Below are positions 9,662 through 21,874 of a stretch of DNA of 43,369 nt, piece by piece. Positions within the stretch are counted from its first letter, which is position 1. Each line of letters opens with the position of its first letter. Source of the stretch: Syntrophaceae bacterium (lineage in GTDB: Bacteria; Desulfobacterota; BSN033; UBA1163); contig JACAEX010000063.1 in the NCBI GenBank assembly GCA_013388635.1, positions 1-43,369 of the forward strand. Direction: 5' to 3'. The notes beneath the pieces are model-generated. The model made no database searches. It worked only from the letters and a program-made list of their open reading frames with translations, and was not told where the DNA came from. Position numbers and translations under genes: made by a program.

Positions 9662-9733
9662 AACTCCCCTCGCTCCCCGCCTGCCGGCAGGCAGGTATTC
9701 CCCCTTAAGTTAAAGGGGGATGAATGGGGGTTA
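9662..9733. repeat. C/G-rich inverted repeat, family C copy 1, with a nested GCAGGC palindrome
   Basis: Inner stem CCCCCTTAA/TTAAAGGGGG and outer AACTCCCCTC/GGGGGTT match the cleaner copy at 33099-33149. Between AACTCCCCTC and ATTCCCCCTTAA this copy has extra sequence containing GCCTGCCGGCAGGCAGGT (about 9679-9696), absent from the other two copies, which indicates insertion. The last bases provide the stop codon (TAA, 9731-9733) of the radical SAM gene. Confidence 0.75.
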
Positions 9734-10948
9734 AAGGAAAAAGTTTTCATCCTCGACTTCTTCAATCCGATTAACGTCCTCTCCTGAATGGATCAATCTT
9801 TCCAGCCACCAGTTGGTCTCGTTATAGAAACACCCGACCACACGGCACTCCACAGAGGCATCAAAATCCAATATCGATCTCGCTGTGTTCAGGAGACTCT
9901 CCTTGAGCTTGCTCTCCGTCGTGTAGCCATCGTTCTCACCGATCCTCGCTTCTTTCACTCCTCTGAACGCAGGGCAGTGGAAGATGCCGGACGGGGCCAC
10001 CACCGTCCTGAAAAACGACATATGACACCGTTGAGGTTGTGTTTTTATCTTCTCGGTCTCTCCGCTCAACATCGCCCGAAGGTTGACGCTTTCAAGAACC
10101 TTGATCTGCCCGTTCGCAACCCCCTTTGCCTTCTCCAGACGGATCCGGATCTGTTCTGAGATCTCCTTCTCCTTAGCCCGATCCACTTTTTCGAGGAGGG
10201 ACTCGCGGTGGGTATCTTCCAAGCGGATCAGACAGGGCTTCAATGAGACGTAATCAAAGGCATGTTCTCTTGCCAGTTTGACGGTCTCGGAGATCTCATC
10301 AAGATTTGGCTTCAACTTCATGCCGTTGACTTCCAGGCCCTCCCAGATGATCAGGAAGGAATAACCCAGGGAGACCCTCGGGTTCATCTCCTTCACCTTT
10401 CTCGCCCCTTCGAGTATCCGGCCCAGACGGATCCTGCTCTTGGGCCGGTGCAAATCTTTAAACGTCTCCTCCTTAGCCGCATCAATTGAAATACGAATCC
10501 AGTCCTTCTCCTCAAATAGCCCCGCAACCTCTGCAATCTTATCCATTCTGGTGCCATTGGTTGCGATTCCGAGCTGAAGTCCTCTTCCTTTGATGTCGCG
10601 CACGATCTCAGTAAAATCTTTATGGAGGGTCGGTTCCCCACCTCCGATCAATATGACGGAGAGGAGGCCATGAGAACGGAGGACGTCGATCATCCTCTTC
10701 ACCTCTCCCAGTTTGAGGCTCTTCCCATCGTTGAGCAACCCTGAATCGACGCAGTAAGGACAGGAAAAATTACAGGCCGAGGTCAGGTCCAGGTTGATGG
10801 AGATCGGGCTGAACAGAGGGATATCCTGAGCCGCAGTGTCCTGTTTCGCATTCCTCTGCCACAAAACATACTCCCTGAGCCTGTTGATCGTGGACTCCTG
10901 CCTCAGCTTGGAGCCGAAATCATGCTCTCTGTTCTTCAGCTTTTCCAT
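9731..10948 (-). CDS. Radical SAM enzyme with C-terminal SPASM-like cysteines
   Basis: 405 residues. The radical SAM cluster motif CNFSCPYC sits after LDLTSA (about 60-67), followed by the SAM-binding GGGEPTLH and a TNGT strand, all typical. The C-terminal third holds further cysteines (RCHMSFF, FHCPAFRG, CRVVGCF), as in SPASM/twitch proteins that bind auxiliary clusters. The gene overlaps the Gfo/Idh oxidoreductase by 13 bp, so the two are translationally coupled and likely act on one substrate. Given the surrounding sugar-transfer genes, a nucleotide-sugar or glycolipid substrate is inferred, but peptide modification cannot be excluded. I cannot assign it to a characterised enzyme. Confidence 0.85.
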   Translation of the reverse strand: MEKLKNREHDFGSKLRQESTINRLREYVLWQRNAKQDTAAQDIPLFSPISINLDLTSACNFSCPYCVDSGLLNDGKSLKLGEVKRMIDVLRSHGLLSVILIGGGEPTLHKDFTEIVRDIKGRGLQLGIATNGTRMDKIAEVAGLFEEKDWIRISIDAAKEETFKDLHRPKSRIRLGRILEGARKVKEMNPRVSLGYSFLIIWEGLEVNGMKLKPNLDEISETVKLAREHAFDYVSLKPCLIRLEDTHRESLLEKVDRAKEKEISEQIRIRLEKAKGVANGQIKVLESVNLRAMLSGETEKIKTQPQRCHMSFFRTVVAPSGIFHCPAFRGVKEARIGENDGYTTESKLKESLLNTARSILDFDASVECRVVGCFYNETNWWLERLIHSGEDVNRIEEVEDENFFL

Positions 10949-11886
10949 TTTATCCTCTCCTCAACCTCACTGAAACCGTCATAGATCCTCTTTAGCAAAG
11001 ACATATTGTTCGAGATGTGGGCATATCCGATCAGGGGCGGTGTCTTTTGCCTCACCGCCTCCACGAAATCTCGGACCGATGACTCGAGGGGGTCAGCAAT
11101 CTTCGTCCTCCTGTCCTCGTAGTTAAAATAGATGTCATAATTCGGGAGATCGATCCTCCGAGATACGATCCTGTCGTTGAATCCAAACGAGAAATCGCGG
11201 GGCTGGGCCTCCTGCCTCATAAGCCTGATGAGGACGTCACATCCACCCTTATCAAAGAGATATTCAAACCGGAGGAGGATCTGGTTTTCTTTCGCAGATT
11301 CAAAATCCAGCTGGCTTATCCCTCCCGAGCCAAACACAAAATAGAGCAGGCTCAAGGCATGAGGGACCGATTCTAAGATCATCTCCTTTCCGGAGCAGAA
11401 GGGCGAAAGACTTATAAAAAATTTGTTTCTCTTCCGGACGCTGATCTTGCCGCAGAGTTCCTCATAATACCTTATCGAAAAAGGCCACTGGGAGTTCATC
11501 GCAACGGTCAGACTCTTTTGACCGGCTTTTTCAAAGATGGTCTCGACCATCCTCGCCATATCCCTTTCGTCCGACCAGATAAAGGGCTTTTCGCAAAAGA
11601 TATTTAGCCCTGAATCAATGCATCTCATCAGATATTCGAAATGGGTCCGTGAAGGTGAGGCAATCACCATGGAGTCGGGTTGTTCATTTCCAACCATCTG
11701 ATCAAAGTCTGTATAGGCACGAGCCCGGATCCCATATTTCGCCAAAGCCGATGCCGCATTCCTGCTCGTCTGCTCCGTCGTCCCCAACACAGAGACGACA
11801 TCCGCTCCATTTTTATGAAAATATCTTGCAATATACTCCCCGATCCCGCTCCTCTTTCTGCCAGCACCAATGATCGATACCTTCAT
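10936..11886 (-). CDS. Gfo/Idh/MocA-family oxidoreductase
   Basis: 316 residues. An N-terminal Rossmann fold begins VSIIGAGRKRSGIGEYIA, a slightly lengthened glycine-rich loop, and continues through VIASPSRTHFEYL to FCEKPFI, the EKP motif that carries the catalytic lysine. The C-terminal half is the expected open beta-sheet domain. Members oxidise or reduce sugars using NAD(P). The ATG at 11884 follows a 137-bp spacer with a possible promoter, so a new transcript may begin here. It is coupled to the downstream radical SAM gene. The specific sugar is unknown. Confidence 0.87.
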   Translation of the reverse strand: MKVSIIGAGRKRSGIGEYIARYFHKNGADVVSVLGTTEQTSRNAASALAKYGIRARAYTDFDQMVGNEQPDSMVIASPSRTHFEYLMRCIDSGLNIFCEKPFIWSDERDMARMVETIFEKAGQKSLTVAMNSQWPFSIRYYEELCGKISVRKRNKFFISLSPFCSGKEMILESVPHALSLLYFVFGSGGISQLDFESAKENQILLRFEYLFDKGGCDVLIRLMRQEAQPRDFSFGFNDRIVSRRIDLPNYDIYFNYEDRRTKIADPLESSVRDFVEAVRQKTPPLIGYAHISNNMSLLKRIYDGFSEVEERIKWKS

Positions 11887-12023: not shown

Positions 12024-13565
12024 TCATCGCATTCCTGTTTTGGGACTTATGAAGGCGAGCCTGGCATTCCTCTCCCCGATCTTTTTCTCGAATACCATCT
12101 CCAGTTTCGCGATCTTCTCTAATTCCTCGACGATACTCTCATCTTTGTCTGCCCATAGGTAAAGCCCTTCCTCCTTGATATCTGTAAGTCTCTCGACAAC
12201 CCTGTATCTCTTCCCTGTGATCAGGGGCAACACCCCCTCAAATATCTCATCTGGCATCAGCACGATGATCTCTGATCCCTTTGCCCTATGTAACGCCTCC
12301 CGTGTAAACCCCAGATAGTCCCTCTTCTCTTTCATGGCAGCGTAATAGACCGTCATGAAGGCAGACATAGAGGCGCAAACGACCATCACAAGGCTGAGGA
12401 CGTCTCTTGACCTAAGCCGCGATATGACATAAGAGCTTGTTAGGGATAAAAGTCCAAAGATGATGCCAAGCACCGGCCTCCCCCATAATACTCCTAAAAA
12501 GGGGGCGAAGCACAGGATTGCCGCGACTCCCCATATTACTTTTACGATGAGGCCCTCCCACTTTCGGTTCCCCATACGAGAGAGCCATAAAGCAGTCATG
12601 CAGGCACAGGCAGGATACAAAGGGATGAGGTATAGTCCCCTCTTAGCAGATGCAATGGAGAGGAGAATGAAGGGGCCGATGAACCATGGGAGGTAAGGAT
12701 TCTCCTGAGGCCTCTTAATGAATGAACCAAGGGCTGGGATGAAGGCAAGAGTCCAGGGAAGAAAGTTGAGAGGAAAAACCTTGAGGTAATAAAAGGGGCC
12801 GTGCATATGCCCCAATGCTGCACCTTCAGAAGCTCCGGTGAACCGCATAAGGTTGTTCACCACGATCACCTCACGCAGGAAAGGAAATCCGCCTCTCTCA
12901 TAAAGTGCAAGAATCCACGGGAGTATAGAAATAAGCATGATGGCAAGTATCCATAATGACCTTATCTTCTTAATAATTGAGAGATCCCTCTTGAGAATGA
13001 TGTCCGTAACAACAGCACTGCCGATGATCGCTGGGCCTACCAAACCTTTTGCCATGAAGGAGAGGCCAATGCCTAAGCCCATGAGCACGGAGTACCGAAG
13101 GGTGGATTTCCTGAAAAGCTCTATATAGGCATACATGGCGAGCGTCACAGAAAAGACGAGGGACATGTCCACCTGGATCCACCTAGCAAGCCGAAAGAAA
13201 CTCCCTGAACTCGCCAGTATTCCTGATGCCAAAAGTCCCCTTGTCAAGCCATCTCTTATGGAGACCATACGGAAGGTGACAAATAGGGTAAGACAGGCAA
13301 AGAGGGTCGAGGCAAGCCTGTAAGAAAGGTCATTATCCTTGCCGAAGAGGATACCGAATGTCGCACCGAGCGCATAGTAGAGTGGTGGTTTCTCCAGAAA
13401 TGGTCTGCCGTTCAGACGGGGAACAACGAACTCTTTTCCATGGGCCATCTCAGCGCAGACCCCGGCAACCTGCGGCTCGTCCGGTCTCCACAGGCCGTGC
13501 TGTATCCCAGGAAGCAGGGTTAAGAAAAGGATTGCGGACCACAGAAGGATCGTCCTGTCTCCCAT
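12024..13565 (-). CDS. arnT: ArnT-like GT39 membrane glycosyltransferase (arn-linked)
   Basis: 513 residues with many membrane helices. WRPDEPQVAGVCAEM supplies the acidic catalytic residues, and FLEKPPLYY follows, as in ArnT. ArnT transfers 4-amino-4-deoxy-L-arabinose from undecaprenyl phosphate to lipid A phosphates in the periplasm, lowering negative charge and so sensitivity to cationic peptides. The ATG lies 3 bp after the arnB stop codon, so it is the natural ArnT of this operon. I see no way to separate it from other GT39 transferases by motif alone, so the symbol rests on context. Confidence 0.78.
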   Translation of the reverse strand: MGDRTILLWSAILFLTLLPGIQHGLWRPDEPQVAGVCAEMAHGKEFVVPRLNGRPFLEKPPLYYALGATFGILFGKDNDLSYRLASTLFACLTLFVTFRMVSIRDGLTRGLLASGILASSGSFFRLARWIQVDMSLVFSVTLAMYAYIELFRKSTLRYSVLMGLGIGLSFMAKGLVGPAIIGSAVVTDIILKRDLSIIKKIRSLWILAIMLISILPWILALYERGGFPFLREVIVVNNLMRFTGASEGAALGHMHGPFYYLKVFPLNFLPWTLAFIPALGSFIKRPQENPYLPWFIGPFILLSIASAKRGLYLIPLYPACACMTALWLSRMGNRKWEGLIVKVIWGVAAILCFAPFLGVLWGRPVLGIIFGLLSLTSSYVISRLRSRDVLSLVMVVCASMSAFMTVYYAAMKEKRDYLGFTREALHRAKGSEIIVLMPDEIFEGVLPLITGKRYRVVERLTDIKEEGLYLWADKDESIVEELEKIAKLEMVFEKKIGERNARLAFISPKTGMR

Positions 13566-13568
13566 TAC

Positions 13569-14732
13569 TTAGCGCCTCCGGCTATAGAGGACATCGCGGA
13601 TCTCCTCTACCACCGCCACTACGTCTTCTTCCTGCATGTCCGGGAAAAGGGGCAATGAGACGATTCGCGCGGCCACATATTCGGAGTTTTTGAGAAGGTC
13701 GCGTGATGGGTGGTAACGCTTCCGGTAGTACGACAGCTCATGTACAGCCAGGAAGTGAAGACCGGTGCCGATCTTCCTCTTTCTCATCTCCTCTCGAAAC
13801 TCGTCACGGGTAAGACCCGTCCTTTCCGGATCTATGAGAATCGTATAGATGTGCCAGGAGTGCCGGGAGGGATAAGGGACTCTCGCTGGCCGGATGATCT
13901 CAGGCAGATCATCAAGGAGTCGATCGTAGAGTTCGGCAAGTTTTCTCCTCCGCGAGTTCATCTCTTCGATGCGACGGAGCTGAACAAGTCCCAGGGCTGC
14001 CTGGAGATCTGTTAGATTATATTTCCAACCTGGCTCAACGAGATCATAGCCGCTGGGGACTGCGCCTGCATAGCGTTTCCAAGCATCCTGATCGACGCCA
14101 TGAAAGCGAAGGGAGATAAGGCGATCCCGCAATTTCTCGTCAAAAACCGTAATCAGTCCTCCCTCCCCTGTGGTCAGATTTTTGATGGCGTGGAAGCTGA
14201 ACACAGCCGGGTTTTTCCCAGATCCAATCCTCTTCCCACGATATTCTGTGCCGATCGCATGGGCTGCATCCTCGATCAAGATCAGTCCGTGCTCCTCACA
14301 GAGGCCCTGGAAGACGTCTAAGTCGCATGGCTGACCGGTAAAATGAACTGGGATAATGGCCCTCGTGCGTGGAGTGATGACCTGTTCGACACTGGCTGGA
14401 TCGAGTTGAAAGGTCCTGCGATCGATGTCTGCAAAAACAGGCTGCGCTCCGAGAAGTTCCACCATATTTGCCGGGGATGGCCACGTGAGGGATGCGGTGA
14501 TCACTTCCTGGCCAGGACCGATGCCCAAGGCTTGAAGCAGGATGTGGAAGCCCGCTGTGGCAGAACTGAGAGCGATTCCGAAGGGGGCACCCACATAAGT
14601 TGAAAACTCTTTTTCGAATGCCGCCACCCGAGGACCGGAGGTGATCCAGCCTGAACGGAGCGCTTCGGTCACCTCCTTGATCTCAGCCTCGGTGATGCTT
14701 GGCCGAGTAAATGGAAGAAAAGAATCTCTCAT
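13569..14732 (-). CDS. arnB: UDP-4-amino-4-deoxy-L-arabinose aminotransferase
   Basis: 387 residues, colinear with E. coli ArnB from FLPFTRP to SLPLFPDM. The PLP lysine is K184 in FSFHAIKNLTTGEGG, and D155 in IEDAAHA pairs with the cofactor ring nitrogen. It converts the 4-keto-pentose made by the ArnA decarboxylase domain to UDP-L-Ara4N, with glutamate as amino donor. Its ATG overlaps the arnD stop by 4 bp (ATGA). Full length and no disrupted motif. DegT-family relatives act on other keto-sugars, but the flanking arn genes make this assignment firm. Confidence 0.93.
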   Translation of the reverse strand: MRDSFLPFTRPSITEAEIKEVTEALRSGWITSGPRVAAFEKEFSTYVGAPFGIALSSATAGFHILLQALGIGPGQEVITASLTWPSPANMVELLGAQPVFADIDRRTFQLDPASVEQVITPRTRAIIPVHFTGQPCDLDVFQGLCEEHGLILIEDAAHAIGTEYRGKRIGSGKNPAVFSFHAIKNLTTGEGGLITVFDEKLRDRLISLRFHGVDQDAWKRYAGAVPSGYDLVEPGWKYNLTDLQAALGLVQLRRIEEMNSRRRKLAELYDRLLDDLPEIIRPARVPYPSRHSWHIYTILIDPERTGLTRDEFREEMRKRKIGTGLHFLAVHELSYYRKRYHPSRDLLKNSEYVAARIVSLPLFPDMQEEDVVAVVEEIRDVLYSRRR

Positions 14733-15703
14733 GGTCGCCCTCCTCCGGATTTTTCCACGACGGACTTAAAACCTTCCGTCTCCAAGGTTCCTCTCACTTC
14801 TGCATTGACCTGTTGAACTGAAACCCATCCCTCTCGTCCCTCCACCCTCTGCCTCCCTATAACCGCCCTGCCAATTTGGTCTGAAGGCGGAAGGAGTTCT
14901 CCGAGGGGCACCAAACACCCCTCCCTGATCTGAAACTCCTGTAAGAACGCTCGAAACAGGCCAAGGCAGGATATACCCTCCACCTCTGCATGGATGGTTA
15001 ATACATTAAGCGAATCCGGCCTCATGAGCGAGATAAGGTATCGGTTGTAATTCTCCTGAGTAACCCCATCTCGACCGACCACCTCATCATAAGTGGGAAG
15101 CGTGCTCGGGATCTGAGGTTGGGGCAATATAATCCCCTTGACCACCGGATAAAAAACAGACCTTCCCCGGCAGTCGCTATTGTAACGGAAAGGCAATTTG
15201 GCTTTTTCAAGGAGGGCCTGTTCGGTGATGCGCCATGAAGGAGCGGCAGAACAGATCGGGGAGGTCCCTGTACACTCCCTGATAGCCTCGAATCCCTGAA
15301 CGAGTTGGCGGTGAATCAATTCACCTGTCATGCTCTCGATATGCGTCTGCCAGCGGTAATGGTCCCAGGCGTGAAGACCGATTTCATGTCCTTCACAGGC
15401 CGTGGCCTTGATGACGTGGCTCAGTTCTTTACCGATCAGCGGGCCAGGCCAAAGGGCTCCTCTCAACAAGATATTCCAGCCATAGAGGTTTGGGGCTTTC
15501 GTGCGCCACATTTTGCGGAGGAATTCGGGCCGGAATAACCGCCAGATATGCCTGCCCATGTTATCCGGTCCCACCGAGAAGAAAAACGTTCCCTGCACGC
15601 GATGCTCTGCCAACACCCTGAGCAGGTTTGGCACGCCCACCCCGGTTCCCCGAAATGTATCGACATCAATGCGCAAGCCGACTCGAAACAACTCTTCCGC
15701 CAT
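14729..15703 (-). CDS. arnD: Undecaprenyl-phosphate 4-deoxy-4-formamido-L-arabinose deformylase
   Basis: 324 residues of the polysaccharide deacetylase (NodB) fold. RVGLRIDVDTFRGT gives the metal-binding Asp pair, FFFSVGPDNMGRH follows, and GLHAWDHYRW supplies the His ligands; YNSDCRG and TIHAEVEG are ArnD-specific blocks. It removes the formyl group after the sugar has been placed on undecaprenyl phosphate. The C-terminus runs about 20 residues beyond E. coli ArnD. It lies 109 bp after arnA, with a terminator-like hairpin in the gap, and overlaps arnB by 4 bp. Confidence 0.93.
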   Translation of the reverse strand: MAEELFRVGLRIDVDTFRGTGVGVPNLLRVLAEHRVQGTFFFSVGPDNMGRHIWRLFRPEFLRKMWRTKAPNLYGWNILLRGALWPGPLIGKELSHVIKATACEGHEIGLHAWDHYRWQTHIESMTGELIHRQLVQGFEAIRECTGTSPICSAAPSWRITEQALLEKAKLPFRYNSDCRGRSVFYPVVKGIILPQPQIPSTLPTYDEVVGRDGVTQENYNRYLISLMRPDSLNVLTIHAEVEGISCLGLFRAFLQEFQIREGCLVPLGELLPPSDQIGRAVIGRQRVEGREGWVSVQQVNAEVRGTLETEGFKSVVEKSGGGRP

Positions 15704-15729
15704 TTTTTGCTTTATCCACCGGTTGCAGA

Positions 15730-15756
15730 AAAATACCTCTGCCGCCAGTCAGAGGT
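15730..15756 (-). terminator. Terminator-like hairpin between arnA and arnD
   Basis: On the minus strand ACCTCTG and CAGAGGT form a 7-bp stem around an 8-nt loop (15735-15756), followed by ATTTTT. It is weak by length but correctly placed to reduce read-through from arnA into arnD. All other arn junctions are tight, with only this one spaced by over 100 bp. Confidence 0.4.
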
Positions 15757-15812
15757 GAATGACCGTATGGTAAGGGGTTGAGAGAACACCTGATCAGCAG
15801 CCGTATGGAGGT

Positions 15813-17813
15813 TTACTCCGTCATCCCAAATCCCCCTTCTTCAACTGCCTGGCGGAGGAAGAAATCAAGGGTGCTTGCAACGGAGGTCTCCAGATCGACT
15901 TTCGGCTCCCAGCCGAGGAGCCGTCTCGCATTACGGATGCTCGGACGGCGGTGTCGAAGATCCTGATAACCCGTGCCATAGTAAACACTGCTCTCAATCT
16001 CCCGAAAACCAGCAAAAGGAGGGAATCTGTTGCGTAGCGGGTGATGGTCGAACACCTTTACCAACATCTCCGCAAGCTCCCGGATACTCACCTCATTATT
16101 CGGATTGCCGAGATTGATAATCTGGCCATCGCATTTTTCGCCTTCGTTTTCAATGATACGGAAGAGGCCCTCAATCCCGTCACGGATATCCGTGAAACAG
16201 CGTTTCTGCTTTCCGCCGTCGATCAGCAGAATCGGGCGGCCTTCCACAAGATTTAGGATGAGCTGCGTGATCGCCCGGGAGCTGCCGATCCTCGCTGAGG
16301 TGAGGCTGTCCAGTCGAGGGCCTATCCAGTTGAATGGCCGAAAGAGCGTAAATTTCAGTCCTTCATTTTGCCCGTAGGCCCAGATCACCCGATCGAGAAG
16401 CTGCTTGCTGCAGGAGTAGATCCAGCGCTGCATCCGAATAGGACCGAGCACCAGTTTGGAACGGTCTTCGTCAAACTCCGGCTCATCACACATCCCATAG
16501 ACTTCAGAGGTGGAGGGAAAGATCACGCGTTTCTGGTATTTGACGCAGTAGCGCACGATCCTCAGGTTCTCTTCGAAATCGAGCTCGAACACTTTGAGAG
16601 GATTCCGGACATATTCAATCGGGGTTGCAATGGCCACCAGTGGAATGACCATGTCGCATTTCCGGATATGGTACTCGATCCATTCGCGATGAATGGAGAT
16701 ATCCCCTTCTGAAAAATAGAAGTCCGGCCTACCTAAGAGATGCTTGCAGTAGTTGGACTGGAGGTCCATGCCATGGACCTCGTACTTGCCGCTTTCTAAC
16801 AACCTTTCACTTACCGCGCTGCCAATAAAACCATTGACGCCAAGGATCAAGACCTTCTTCTTTCTCTTCTGCTCTAAACGATCCCGGATTGGAGGGCCGA
16901 ACCTCATCCCTGGAACGAGCGATAGCTCCTCCGCAAGCTGCTCCCCTGTCATATAGAGACTGCCCTCAGCCTGACCATAGTTTACCACAATGGCGTTCTG
17001 AGCGGTTGCGATCGTCAGAGGCCTGATGGAAATAACCGTCCCCGGCAAGTGGTTCATCGCCTCGAGGCCAACCTCTCTGACCTCCCAGAAAAGGCATTTC
17101 CTTTCTCCGATGAAGCTAAACGCCCCGGGAAACGGCTTCGTCACCGCGCGAACAAGATTTCTTATCTCCCGGGCTTTCTTAAACCAGTCGATCTCACCGT
17201 CTTTTGGACGCCGGCCCCCGAAGTAAGTGGCCTGGCTATGATCCTGAGGGATGCGCGGCGCGGTACCGTTCTTGATCCGGGGCAGAATCTCATCGAGCAG
17301 TCTCTCTGCCGTCCAGGCTACCTTTCGGTGTAATGTCAAGGCGGTGTCGTCATCGCTGATCGCGATCCTTTCCTGGGCCACGATATCCCCATCGTCCGGA
17401 CGCGGAGTCATATAGTGGAGCGTAACCCCTGTCTCCTTTTCTCCGTTCACCAATACCCAATTGATCGGAGCGCGGCCGCGGTATTTGGGAAGAAGTGAGC
17501 CATGAAGGTTGAGACATCCGGCCTTCGGGATGTCAAGGATTTCGGGCTGAATGATTTGCCGGTAGTAGAATGAAAAAAGGATATCCGGATTTAGCTCCTT
17601 GATCTTCTCCACCCAGAGAGGATGATTGATGTCGCCCGGCGCAAAAACCGGTATCTTCTCTTCTGCTGCAAGTTCGGCGACTGAATCGAACCAGATGGTC
17701 TCTTGGGGATCGTCTCGATGGGTGAACACACTGACAATCTCAAAGCCATGCTTCAAAAGCGCCTTAATGCCCACACAGCCAATGTTGCTATAAGCCAAAA
17801 CCACACTTCTCAT
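15813..17813 (-). CDS. arnA: Bifunctional UDP-L-Ara4N formyltransferase / UDP-glucuronate decarboxylase
   Basis: 666 residues from the ATG at 17811-17813 (a GTG three bases earlier would overlap the arnC stop by one base). Residues 1-300 are the 10-formyl-THF transferase, with FNLHGS-type active site [15 protein letters not shown] (Asn-His). Residues about 318-666 are an extended SDR decarboxylase: [10 protein letters not shown] binds [11 protein letters not shown] and [11 protein letters not shown] hold the Ser/Glu and Tyr-Lys, and [14 protein letters not shown] contains the arginine specific to ArnA. Both activities of the arn pathway are thus on one polypeptide, as in Enterobacteria. Full length, with no broken motif. 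Confidence 0.95.
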
Positions 17814-17815
17814 CA

Positions 17816-18799
17816 CTATATACCCGACGTGCGATCCTTCTGCATCTCATGAACGAACTGGCTCCTGCCGGTGATATGTGAAATGAGATAGCGAGGCCGC
17901 TCCCTCACATCATAGTAAATCCGTCCGATGTACTCACCGAGCAGCCCCATTCCTAAGAACTGGGCACCGACAAAAAAGAAGAGCAAAGCAAACAGGGTGA
18001 ATACCCCGCCCACGGCCCATTGGGGCCCGTGGATCAACCGCATGACCAGGATGAAAATCCCCAGAGCGAACCCGAACCCGGAAAGGATTATTCCGATCAC
18101 ACTGAGCACACGCAAAGGGAAGGTCGTCATAGTCGTCAACAGATCGAACTGGAGATTGATCAGCTTCCACAATGTGTATTTCGATTCTCCGCCTGTGCGC
18201 TCCTGATGGGGAACCTCGATTTCCGTCGTGCTTCGGGCAAAGCTATTCGCCAGAACTGGAATAAAGGTGCTGTGCCCCCGGCTGCTCAACATCGCCTTAA
18301 CGATATCTCTATGATAGGCACGTAGCATGCAGCCATAGTCATGCATCATGACCCCTGTGATCCTTTGAACAAGTTTGTTCATCATCCAGGAGCTCAGCTT
18401 TCTGAATCCCGTGTCTCTCCGGTTGACCCGCACCGTGCCGACGACATCGTAGCCCTGCCGGGCCTTGTCTACCAAAAGAGGAATCGCCTCTGGGGGATTT
18501 TGCAGGTCTGCGTCGAGGGTGATCACAATATCACCCCTGGAGCAGGAAAAGCCTGCCAGGATCGCCCCATGCTGGCCATAGTTGCGGTTAAGGAAAACAC
18601 CGACCACTTTGTCCCGATGATGCTCTGCCGCTTCACTGATCAGTCGGGCCGAACCATCACGGCTTCCATCATCAACGAGGATGATCTCAAAGGCGATGCC
18701 CAGGCTTTGGCATGCCTCAAGACAGCGCCGGATGAATTCAGGCAGGTTTTTCTCCTCATTAAAGACCGGGACAACGACCGAGATCATGGAAGGTTCCAT
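17816..18799 (-). CDS. arnC: Undecaprenyl-phosphate 4-deoxy-4-formamido-L-arabinose transferase
   Basis: About 327 residues. A GT2 domain ([36 protein letters not shown]) is followed by [12 protein letters not shown] and two C-terminal membrane helices (about 230-300 in this frame), the ArnC layout. It loads the formylated sugar on undecaprenyl phosphate at the inner membrane. I start at the ATG at 18797-18799, which has GAGGGAG eight bases upstream; the longer in-frame start at 18862 would overlap the flippase gene and adds residues absent from the family. It is one base pair-scale close to arnA downstream. Confidence 0.92.
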
Positions 18800-18812
18800 C
18801 AAAGACACTCCC

Positions 18813-19181
18813 TCAGCTTCGAGACAGGAGAAACACTCCAGCAATGATGACTGCAATTCCAATGACCCGCATCCAAGATAGGCTTTCTTGAAAAATGAGG
18901 TAACCCATCAATGTTACTACCACATAGCCGACACTTAAAAAAGGATAGGCATAACTGACCTCCACACGAGCGAGCACCAGCAACCAGATCATGACACTGA
19001 CCACATAGGAGGCCAGACCTGATAAAACGTACAGATTGATCGCCACCTTTTTGACGATGGGAAAGAAGTTTTGAAATTGGAATTCGAAATACCCGATGCT
19101 GAGCATACCCTTCTTGAGAAGCACCTGGGCAAAGGCATTTAACAATACACCTGTTAGAATAAGGGGAATGTATTTAACCAT
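18813..19181 (-). CDS. arnE: EamA/SMR-type flippase subunit, ArnE/ArnF-like
   Basis: 122 residues with four membrane helices and the small-multidrug-resistance fold: [14 protein letters not shown] in helix 1 and [19 protein letters not shown] in helix 3. In E. coli, ArnE and ArnF together flip undecaprenyl-phosphate-Ara4N to the periplasm; only one such gene is present here, so a homodimer or a partner elsewhere is implied. It opens the arn operon. No Shine-Dalgarno sequence precedes the ATG; the -10 element TAAAAT ends 7 bp before it, so the mRNA may be leaderless. The E versus F label is arbitrary. Confidence 0.82.
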
Positions 19182-19187
19182 ATTATA

Positions 19188-19220
19188 ATTTTACAAGGCC
19201 GGGATTAATTTGAGATTAAA
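19188..19220 (-). promoter_or_regulatory. OmpR/PmrA-type direct-repeat promoter for the arn operon
   Basis: Reading the minus strand, TTTAAT (19215-19220) and ATTAAT (19204-19209) are spaced as an 11-bp direct repeat (N5 between them). Ten bases later comes TAAAAT (19188-19193), with a second TATAAT overlapping just after at 19182-19187. A direct repeat ending 10 bp before the -10 is the geometry of PhoB/OmpR-family activated promoters, and TTTAAT-N5-ATTAAT resembles the PmrA box. Predicted start of transcription is at or very near the arnE ATG. Confidence 0.6.
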
Positions 19221-19289
19221 AGAAGATGAAGATTTCTTAATGGGGGCTTCAGTGGATTTTCTGAAAGCTTACTTTTCAAATTAACAAGG

Positions 19290-19333
19290 CTTAATCTTCC
19301 TCTAATCTTCTCTTAATATTGGTCGCTTAGAAT
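19290..19333 (+). promoter_or_regulatory. OmpR/PmrA-type triple direct repeat and -10 facing right
   Basis: CTTAAT (19290-19295), TCTAAT (19301-19306) and CTTAAT (19312-19317) recur at an exact 11-bp step, followed after 10 bp by TAGAAT (19328-19333). The same half-site and the same 10-bp gap are seen facing left at 19188-19220, so one regulator probably drives both divergent genes. Transcription would start near 19340, downstream of the first in-frame ATG (19336), which supports the later ATG at 19375. Confidence 0.62.
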
Positions 19334-19374
19334 GAATGGGAGACGCTGTCACACTATTCTGGAAGTCAACTGTT

Positions 19375-19719
19375 ATGACAAAGGAGAAACTACTTTCCAT
19401 GTTTTCCAGGTATAGAGGATTTTCATATCTTCCTCCATTTTTCGTTATGGCCGTGACATTCTATCAGGAATGGGAAGATGATCATCTGGTTGTGCTTTAC
19501 GAAGAGAAAAAACTTTTGGAAAGATGGGGAGATGAATATCGGGCCTATCTGAATGAGGTTCCCCGGTGGATACCAAACCTGAAAAACTTACATAAGGCCA
19601 AAGAAGACGGGGTTAATTGGATCGATGCCCTGCGGTCTGAGGTTCCATCTCTCTTGGTGATCCTTTTCGGAATCTTTATCTTCGCTATAAAGGAGATTTT
19701 GAGCCCGCTTGTAGAATAA
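19375..19719 (+). CDS. Truncated isoprenylcysteine-methyltransferase-like membrane protein
   Basis: About 114 residues. The part after residue 40 (EEKKLLERWGDEYRAYLNEVPRWIPNL) matches the C-terminal SAM-pocket region of ICMT-like proteins and resembles FGERFEDYDQKVPDYIPRL in the gene at 5136-5675. The GPYxYVxxPLY motif and the membrane helices before it are missing. One N-terminal and one C-terminal hydrophobic stretch remain. The ATG at 19375 has GGAAG nine bases upstream; an ATG at 19336 lies too close to the -10 to be used. It may be a degenerate gene or a small membrane protein with a new role; the well-formed promoter argues for expression. Confidence 0.6.
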   Translation: MTKEKLLSMFSRYRGFSYLPPFFVMAVTFYQEWEDDHLVVLYEEKKLLERWGDEYRAYLNEVPRWIPNLKNLHKAKEDGVNWIDALRSEVPSLLVILFGIFIFAIKEILSPLVE

Positions 19720-19791: not shown

Positions 19792-21216
19792 CTATGTCTT
19801 TTGAATGGGTAAATAGACGGTGAATGTAGATCCTTTATCTAACTCACTCTCCACTTCGATCCTTCCACCGTGGGCGTGAGCAATCCATTCGGCAATGCTC
19901 AGACCTAACCCGACCCCTCCGGTCTCCTTCGATCGAGACTTATCGACTCGATAAAAACGCTTGAAAATCTTTTCGTGCTCCACCTTCGGGATGCCGATGC
20001 CGGTATCTTTGATTTTAACTAAGGCCCCGTCCCGGTTTTTCTCCACGGCAATTTCGATGGATCCCTTTGCCGTGTACTTAATCGCATTATCGATCAGATT
20101 GGTGAAGAGTTGCTGGAGTCGCACCTTATCCCCAGATATCATCACCTCCTGAAGGCTATTCGCCTTCCAGGCCAATCCCTTCTGTTCTGCAAGAATCTGA
20201 AAGAGGCTGCAGACCTCTTCGATGAGAAGATCTAACCGAACAGGCTCCATCTTCAATTCCACCTGCGAAGAGTCAGATTTGGAGAGGAGGATCAGATCAT
20301 TGATCATCCGGTTCAGGTGATCAAACCGATCGATGAAATGGCTCAACCCTTCCTGATACTCTTCAGGTTGCCTTTCTCTTGAAAGAAGAACCTCTGCCTC
20401 CCCTTTCATTGCGCAGATGGGCGTCTTTAGCTCATGCGAGGCGTCGGCCGTAAATTCAGCCATCCGTTTGAAAGAGCCCTCCAATCTGGCGATCATGTCA
20501 TTGATGGTCAGGATCAGATCATCCATCTCATCCCCTGTCCCTCTCGGATTCAACCGCTCATTCAGATTCTCTGAGCTGATGCTCTGAGCCTTTGAGGCGA
20601 TGTAGCCGATGGGAGAGAGAGACCTTCTCGCCAGGGTCCATCCTCCAACCGCCCCGAGCACCAACACGATAAGAAGGGCAAACAATATATTATTTCTGAA
20701 ATGGACTAAGTTCTTTCTTGCAAAACGAAGATGGGTCCCCAGTTGAATGATTTCAGTCAGTTTCCCGTTCCTATAAACCGGGGTGCTGATGATCCGGTAG
20801 GGTGTCCTCCTGTTCGAAGAAAGAAATCTCTCCCGGGTCTCTCTACCCTTCTTAGCATTGGTCAACACCTCATCATGAATCACATATCCCATCTCTCCAA
20901 ACCCTTTTGAAATGTAGAGCGGTTCGCCTTCTTTATCTAAAATTTGAAAAAAGAAGGGATAATACTTTCTCACCATCACTTCATCCTCGAATCTCATCAA
21001 GAAATATATCTCCTCCGGTCCCTGAGACAGAACCTTCTCCATCTCTGTCGTCTCATCGAGAAGAAACTGATCGATCTCCTTAATGAGTTGATGACTCAAT
21101 CGCAAATAGAGAAATCCGCAAATAATCACGGTGGATACCATAAAGGTAAGGATGTACCAGAGGCTCAATTTGAAGTCAGTCCTCCGGTAGAACTTACCCC
21201 CGATCTTCGAGGACAT
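19792..21216 (-). CDS. Two-component sensor histidine kinase
   Basis: 474 residues: membrane helix at about 19-40, a periplasmic sensing part of about 130 residues, a second helix at about 178-200, a HAMP linker, then the H-box FTADASHELKTP (about 256-267), the N-box FTNLIDNAIKYT and the G-boxes DTGIGIP and GGVGLGLSIAEWI. This is a complete class I kinase. It overlaps the response regulator by 23 bp and lies next to the arn operon, so it is a functional candidate for a PmrB-like sensor. I do not see a clear ExxE iron-binding motif that would make it a true PmrB. The signal is unknown. Confidence 0.92.
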   Translation of the reverse strand: MSSKIGGKFYRRTDFKLSLWYILTFMVSTVIICGFLYLRLSHQLIKEIDQFLLDETTEMEKVLSQGPEEIYFLMRFEDEVMVRKYYPFFFQILDKEGEPLYISKGFGEMGYVIHDEVLTNAKKGRETRERFLSSNRRTPYRIISTPVYRNGKLTEIIQLGTHLRFARKNLVHFRNNILFALLIVLVLGAVGGWTLARRSLSPIGYIASKAQSISSENLNERLNPRGTGDEMDDLILTINDMIARLEGSFKRMAEFTADASHELKTPICAMKGEAEVLLSRERQPEEYQEGLSHFIDRFDHLNRMINDLILLSKSDSSQVELKMEPVRLDLLIEEVCSLFQILAEQKGLAWKANSLQEVMISGDKVRLQQLFTNLIDNAIKYTAKGSIEIAVEKNRDGALVKIKDTGIGIPKVEHEKIFKRFYRVDKSRSKETGGVGLGLSIAEWIAHAHGGRIEVESELDKGSTFTVYLPIQKT

Positions 21217-21874
21217 ATCCGACCCCCTTCACCGTATGGAGAAGCTTGGGCTCAAAATCCTTATCGATCTTATTCCTGAGATGAGAAACATGGACATCGA
21301 TCACATTGGTTGCCGTGTCGAAACGGTAGTCAAAGATCTTCTCAGAGATCATCGTCCGGGTGAGGATCTGACCGGGATGCCTCATAAAGAATTCGAGAAG
21401 GGCATACTCTTTGGGAGTGAGTTCGATCTTCGTCTTTTCGCGGAAAACGCGATGGCCATCGACCTCCAGGATGAGATTGGCCACTTGGAGCCTTGAGGGA
21501 GGGGTGACGATCTTGTCTCGCCTCAGGATCGCCCGGATCCTGGCCAGAAGTTCATTGAAGGAGAAGGGTTTGGTCATATAATCATCCGCTCCAAGATTTA
21601 ACCCCTGGACAATATCTTTTTCCGAGTCCTTCGCGGTCAGGAATATGACCGGGGTATGAATCTCCATTTTCCTCATCCTTTTCAAAATCTCGATGCCGTC
21701 CATCTTCGGAAGCATGATGTCAAGGACAATCAAATCGTAACCCCTGTGAAGAGCTAAGAATAATCCCTTTTCTCCATCCAGGGCGACATCGACCGAAAAG
21801 GAATTTTCCAACAGTCCCTTCTTGACAAATCGAACGATGTCTTTATCGTCTTCGACCAATAAGATCTTCATCAC
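21194..21874 (-). CDS. OmpR/PhoB-family response regulator
   Basis: 226 residues from a GTG at 21872-21874, or 225 from the adjacent ATG. The receiver domain has the acidic pair E8-D9-D10, the phospho-acceptor D52 in LIVLDIMLPKMDG, and the conserved K in MTKPFSFNE. The C-terminal winged helix ends VIDVHVSHLRNKID...TVKGVGYVLE, the classic DNA-binding domain. OmpR-family proteins bind tandem 11-bp direct repeats, and such repeats occur in the divergent spacer at 19204-19317. It is translated just ahead of the kinase gene and probably co-transcribed with it. Confidence 0.94.
   Translation of the reverse strand: MMKILLVEDDKDIVRFVKKGLLENSFSVDVALDGEKGLFLALHRGYDLIVLDIMLPKMDGIEILKRMRKMEIHTPVIFLTAKDSEKDIVQGLNLGADDYMTKPFSFNELLARIRAILRRDKIVTPPSRLQVANLILEVDGHRVFREKTKIELTPKEYALLEFFMRHPGQILTRTMISEKIFDYRFDTATNVIDVHVSHLRNKIDKDFEPKLLHTVKGVGYVLEDRG

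Follow-up and report, generated by a model that had tools for sequence, protein, structure and literature searches.

The locus raises a simple question: do the two mirror-image sets of TTAAT-like half-sites that lie between an arn operon and a small membrane gene form regulated promoters, and if so, which regulator reads them? The original prediction had proposed OmpR-type promoters under a nearby regulator, forming a circuit for lipid A modification in a deltaproteobacterium. Its host assignment agrees with our analysis of the window (the whole 43,369-nucleotide stretch of DNA), whose nearest named relatives are Syntrophaceae MAGs within the Thermodesulfobacteriota. To our knowledge, no control of lipid A remodelling of this kind has been described in this uncultured deltaproteobacterial lineage, and neither the motif TTAATCTT nor polymyxin or lipid A control in Syntrophaceae turned up anything relevant in literature searches. 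Here, we propose as the likely arrangement that the region holds two divergent class-II promoters driven by a linked, copper-type response regulator (type A), the left one leading into the arn operon and the right one into a truncated methyltransferase gene.

Two divergent promoters share a four-part operator

Both half-site sets are present with the exact 11-bp step, and the -10 elements TAAAAT and TAGAAT stand exactly 10 bp beyond them, as had been predicted (Table 1). On the minus strand, the left promoter reads ATTAA (19241-19237)-GAAATC-TTCAT (19230-19226)-CTTCTT-TTAAT (19219-19215)-CTCAAA-TTAAT (19208-19204)-CCCGGCCTTG-TAAAAT (19193-19188), with 0 mismatches to the four-half-site pattern; on the plus strand, the right promoter reads ATTAA (19280-19284)-CAAGGC-TTAAT (19291-19295)-CTTCCT-CTAAT (19302-19306)-CTTCTC-TTAAT (19313-19317)-ATTGGTCGCT-TAGAAT (19328-19333), with 1 mismatch. 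The two operators face away from each other at a distance of 38 bp, and in both an inverted ATTAA half-site lies exactly one 11-bp step outside the first direct half-site. The left set had been described as TTTAAT-N5-ATTAAT, which was correct in its elements, its step and its gap but overlooked the third direct and the inverted half-site, while CTTAAT-N5-TCTAAT-N5-CTTAAT on the right was complete and correctly spaced except for the inverted half-site.

Table 1. Features of the window and of the putative small RNA locus.
Feature	Position	Strand	Basis
arn operon remainder	12024..18862	-	family-model best matches
arnT-like	12024-13565	-	best match, below cut-off
arnB-like	13569-14732	-	best match, below cut-off
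arnD-like	14729-15703	-	best match, below cut-off
bifunctional arnA	15813-17816	-	equivalog cut-off passed, 1089 vs 777 bits
arnC-like	17816-18862	-	best match, below cut-off
arnF-like SMR/EamA subunit, first arn operon gene	18813..19181	-	ArnF model E 1e-18, below its cut-off
left -10 element TAAAAT	19188..19193	-	gap to last half-site 10 bp
left operator	19204..19241	-	ATTAA inverted; TTCAT, TTAAT, TTAAT direct, 11-bp steps; outer spacer GAAATC; sequence read
right operator	19280..19317	+	ATTAA inverted; TTAAT, CTAAT, TTAAT direct; outer spacer CAAGGC; sequence read
right -10 element TAGAAT	19328..19333	+	gap to last half-site 10 bp
small membrane gene, in-frame PEMT/ICMT-type (LmtA-like) methyltransferase remnant	19375..19719	+	aligned to relatives of 184 and 197 aa
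sensor histidine kinase, type A, heavy-metal-type	19792..21216	-	TIGR01386 288.8 bits, cut-off 292.55
OmpR/PhoB-family response regulator, type A, CopR/PcoR-like, proposed activator	21194..21874	-	family models
putative small RNA	G000:C46:81546-81635	-	operator and -10, then ~90 nt without open frame (L158, L109)

TTAAT is a common AT-rich word, and the three direct half-sites alone, with 2 mismatches allowed, are not enriched in the window's own genome (5 matches against 6 for the control), so that chance repeats next to ordinary promoters had to be considered. The full operator behaves differently in pattern searches run genome-wide against a reversed-pattern control. A genome search for the 11-bp motif had been suggested as a check: with up to 2 mismatches allowed, the 3.4-Mb genome yields three copies of the four-part operator, namely C46:81654 and the pair of window promoters, and none of its reversed control. 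Across the 16 family genomes searched the operator gave 47 matches against 5. The tripartite pattern with one mismatch likewise gave 3 matches in the own genome and 0 for the control.

The spacing points the same way. Among 71 sites gathered from relatives by their half-sites alone, with the -10 ignored, TAnnnT lies at a gap of 10 in 33 and at every other gap in 6 or fewer. A profile of the three direct half-sites, the gap and the -10 selected 40 sites. In 37 of these, the bases placed exactly one 11-bp step before the first direct half-site match the inverted one in at least 4 of 5 positions, against at most 3 sites at any other offset; this is an independent confirmation because that position lay outside the profile. 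Built without own-genome sites, the profile scores the window operators at 45.8 and 43.7 bits, compared with -6.5 for the runner-up position in the 43-kb window and a maximum of 6.9 in 1500 dinucleotide shuffles of the region; it is thus independent of the own genome, though not of the motif idea, since its training sites in relatives were first found by TTAAT half-sites. With spacing and synteny conserved as well, we reject the chance-repeat reading, to which we give almost no credence, on the gap-10 preference, the inverted half-site, the rarity of the operator in the genome and the profile scores. The layout is that of class-II activation, with tandem half-sites in 11-bp steps placed over the -35 region at a fixed distance from the -10, and the predicted match to OmpR/PhoB-family spacing is supported by the window sites and by those in relatives. 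Judged from the sequence, two genuine divergent, mirror-image activator promoters of an already known general kind are therefore a real and well-supported feature of this region. Further operator matches precede unidentified genes in relatives (G003:C16:1198, G003:C27:2411, G003:C146:21635, G005:C19 and G005:C35) and may mark additional regulon members.

The promoters lead into lipid A genes

The arn operon expected to the left of the promoters is borne out as a single operon with homologues of arnA, B, C, D, T and F, of which arnA alone passes its equivalog cut-off. From standard -10 geometry, the left transcript is predicted to begin with the A of the ATG of the arnF-like gene, at 19181, and would thus be leaderless or nearly so. 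The right start is predicted at about 19340; an ATG at 19336 lies upstream of it, and translation probably begins from 19375 for that reason.

Alignment with full-length relatives (184-197 aa, PEMT family, weakly similar to LmtA) shows that the small gene keeps both ends in frame and is missing an internal stretch of about 80 residues that includes the GPYSFVRNPLYIG core. The SAM-binding core is absent, the product has no Pfam match, and with this core missing it is probably inactive as a methyltransferase. The full-length relatives are linked to arn genes in G007; in G002 they stand under the same operator. An internally deleted, in-frame methyltransferase behind an intact operator-type promoter was seen in the own genome only.

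A copper-type regulator as the likely activator at the arn promoter

An OmpR-family regulator and a kinase are indeed encoded nearby as a linked pair (Table 1). The regulator's best family model is the heavy-metal model TIGR01387, despite a score below cut-off (267.4 against 279.2 bits), and the closest solved structure to its DNA-binding domain is PcoR, so that by sequence it is best described as CopR/PcoR/AgrR-like rather than PmrA. A true PmrA (BasR) circuit, as in Salmonella and Klebsiella, would account for the hexamers and their 5-bp spacing, which match the PmrA box CTTAAT-N5-CCTAAG (PMC3973317), for its position on pbgP/arn promoters (PMC3973317; PMC4660055) and for Thr187, Asn188 and Val192 of PmrA, which appear to be kept in the recognition helix when published residue numbers are matched by eye. 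Yet the regulator reaches only 191.5 bits against the PmrA equivalog model, whose cut-off is 330, and lies next to heavy-metal regulators, and neither the inverted box nor the third direct repeat belongs to the PmrA box. We have rejected PmrA membership on the model score and consider such a circuit very improbable. The predicted resemblance to the PmrA box consequently holds for the direct-repeat half of the operator, with its head-to-tail CTTAAT-type hexamers upstream of arn, but not for the four half-sites, one of them inverted, the invariant 10-bp gap to the -10 or the regulator's family.

Synteny and spacer class connect the left operator with the type-A regulator. In G001, G002, G004, G009 and G012, the operator lies directly behind the type-A kinase, and ArnT-like, arn or methyltransferase genes come next; G018 has a degenerate operator with a gap of 11 after its type-A kinase orthologue, and in G003 the operator precedes arnT, apart from the kinase. 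The full order of regulator, kinase, operator, arn cluster, oxidoreductase and radical SAM gene is kept in G009 (L101, G009:C117), and its oxidoreductase and radical SAM genes match the neighbours of the window's arn genes at 9731-11886. The outer spacer GAAATC is found at the kinase-linked lipid A promoters, at the G003 arn promoter and in the left window operator, and in no other operator. Of 9 genomes with type A, 8 have it at lipid A promoters (in the ninth, G007, contigs break there), compared with none of 13 without type A (Fisher p ~3e-5, calculated by hand and ignoring kinship); these counts are not independent, as adjoining genes are inherited together. On spacer class and synteny, we regard type A as the best candidate for the arn promoter. 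The right operator has no such tie, and its spacer, CAAGGC, clearly fits neither spacer class.

We infer that, upon a signal, the phosphorylated type-A regulator would occupy the four half-sites, one inverted and three direct, in 11-bp steps. With the last half-site falling between the -35 and -10 positions, at a 10-bp gap from the -10 hexamer, the bound regulator would stand in for a -35 element and recruit a sigma-70-type RNA polymerase. The left promoter would then fire the arn operon, probably as a leaderless transcript, leading to Ara4N addition to lipid A, and the right promoter would fire the truncated lipid-A-type methyltransferase gene.

A paralogous regulator may share the operator

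The family holds two related regulator/kinase pairs, the type-A pair of the window and a type-B pair whose regulator (G000:C99:15661-16323) is 58% identical to type A and has a similar recognition helix (TNVIDVHVSHLR in one, TNVVDVYVNYLR in the other). Type B could control either window promoter or both, by itself or through cross-regulation with type A. In f2 genomes, the operator lies at type B's own promoter (G017, G020 and G021), which suggests that this regulator group reads a TTAAT-type half-site, and type B probably shares its half-site with type A; the same operator also precedes HtrA (G017, G020 and G022). Type B is also present in family genomes without type A that keep the operator of the small RNA described below, and as this holds for the half of the family lacking type A, at least one other regulator must use the operator. 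Type A is missing from G013 as well, yet an operator with the spacer AATATT still stands before ArnT there. The Pseudomonas regulators CopR, CusR and CzcR, which cross-regulate through a common GTAAT half-site (PMC11195947), offer a precedent for such ambiguity. Against this, the GAAATC spacer of the left operator is confined to genomes with type A, and type-B loci in the own family have no operator. The type-A regulator's own gene also has none in front of it. We consider control by type B rather unlikely, and its involvement may lie chiefly at the right promoter. Thus, of the predicted lipid A circuit, the arn half is tied to the linked regulator, while the right operator is not and has the paralogue as a rival reader.

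In other families, the operator has type-B-like kinases on one side and a small gene together with HtrA on the other (L062, L063, L125, L079 and L080), which suggests an older envelope-stress regulon.

The third operator precedes a putative small RNA

The C46 site was at first taken for a promoter aimed at no gene, a view that was dropped when an alignment of relatives showed a small-RNA promoter. The putative RNA contains CUCUUUCCUCCUC as a conserved segment and closes with a terminator hairpin that has T6-7 at its end; 5 of the 14 terminator pairs show two-sided compensating changes. It occurs in 16 of 17 family genomes, one copy each, with a second, weak match in G003, and it matches no Rfam family. 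Envelope small RNAs such as MicA, MgrR and CpxQ are under two-component control, and the candidate resembles them in being a short, terminator-ended RNA, behind a promoter predicted to depend on a regulator, with a C-rich segment that could base-pair with Shine-Dalgarno sequences; it differs in its lack of an Rfam match and its restriction to its own family. We claim no targets, because matches to GAGGAGGAAAGAG in the own genome number 44 against 67 for the control and only some lie before open frames. In another family, G018 and G019 carry an analogous operator, -10, CUCC-containing leader and terminator (L082, L083 and L123). This putative small RNA appears to be previously undescribed and is the most useful lead of the analysis.

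Discussion

The type-A circuit that we favour is closest in plan to the AgrR box of Cupriavidus metallidurans, in which an inverted 6-4-6 repeat and in-phase direct repeats are both needed for class-II activation (PMC7380067). The likeness extends to the class-II position, to a regulator that is nearest the heavy-metal group and to the 6-4-6 plan itself, found here with CTTAAT half-sites as ATTAAG-AAAT-CTTCAT on the left and ATTAAC-AAGG-CTTAAT on the right. In contrast to AgrR, whose half-site is TGTMAT, the half-site here is TTAAT/CTTAAT, and the window-type operator adds two further direct repeats, which invariably lie towards the promoter. The targets differ as well: AgrR serves silver and copper genes, and the operators here precede HtrA, lipid A genes and a putative small RNA; no metal genes were seen beside the operators found, which adjoin envelope genes and the small RNA.

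Taken more broadly, these data can be read as a family-wide envelope-stress regulon of Syntrophaceae-like bacteria. In this reading, which we put forward tentatively and with somewhat less than even confidence, two copper-type paralogues would share a four-half-site code and be distinguished by the spacer that separates the inverted half-site from the first direct one. Together they would govern HtrA, the modification of lipid A and a conserved small RNA that includes an anti-Shine-Dalgarno segment. For this uncultured deltaproteobacterial lineage, the analysis provides a precise operator code for lipid A remodelling, and it suggests that arn can come under a copper-type regulator in place of PmrA. 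The same operator leads to a putative new small RNA family, and paralogues with near-identical half-sites and different spacer classes would offer a clean case for studying insulation versus cross-talk between two-component systems.
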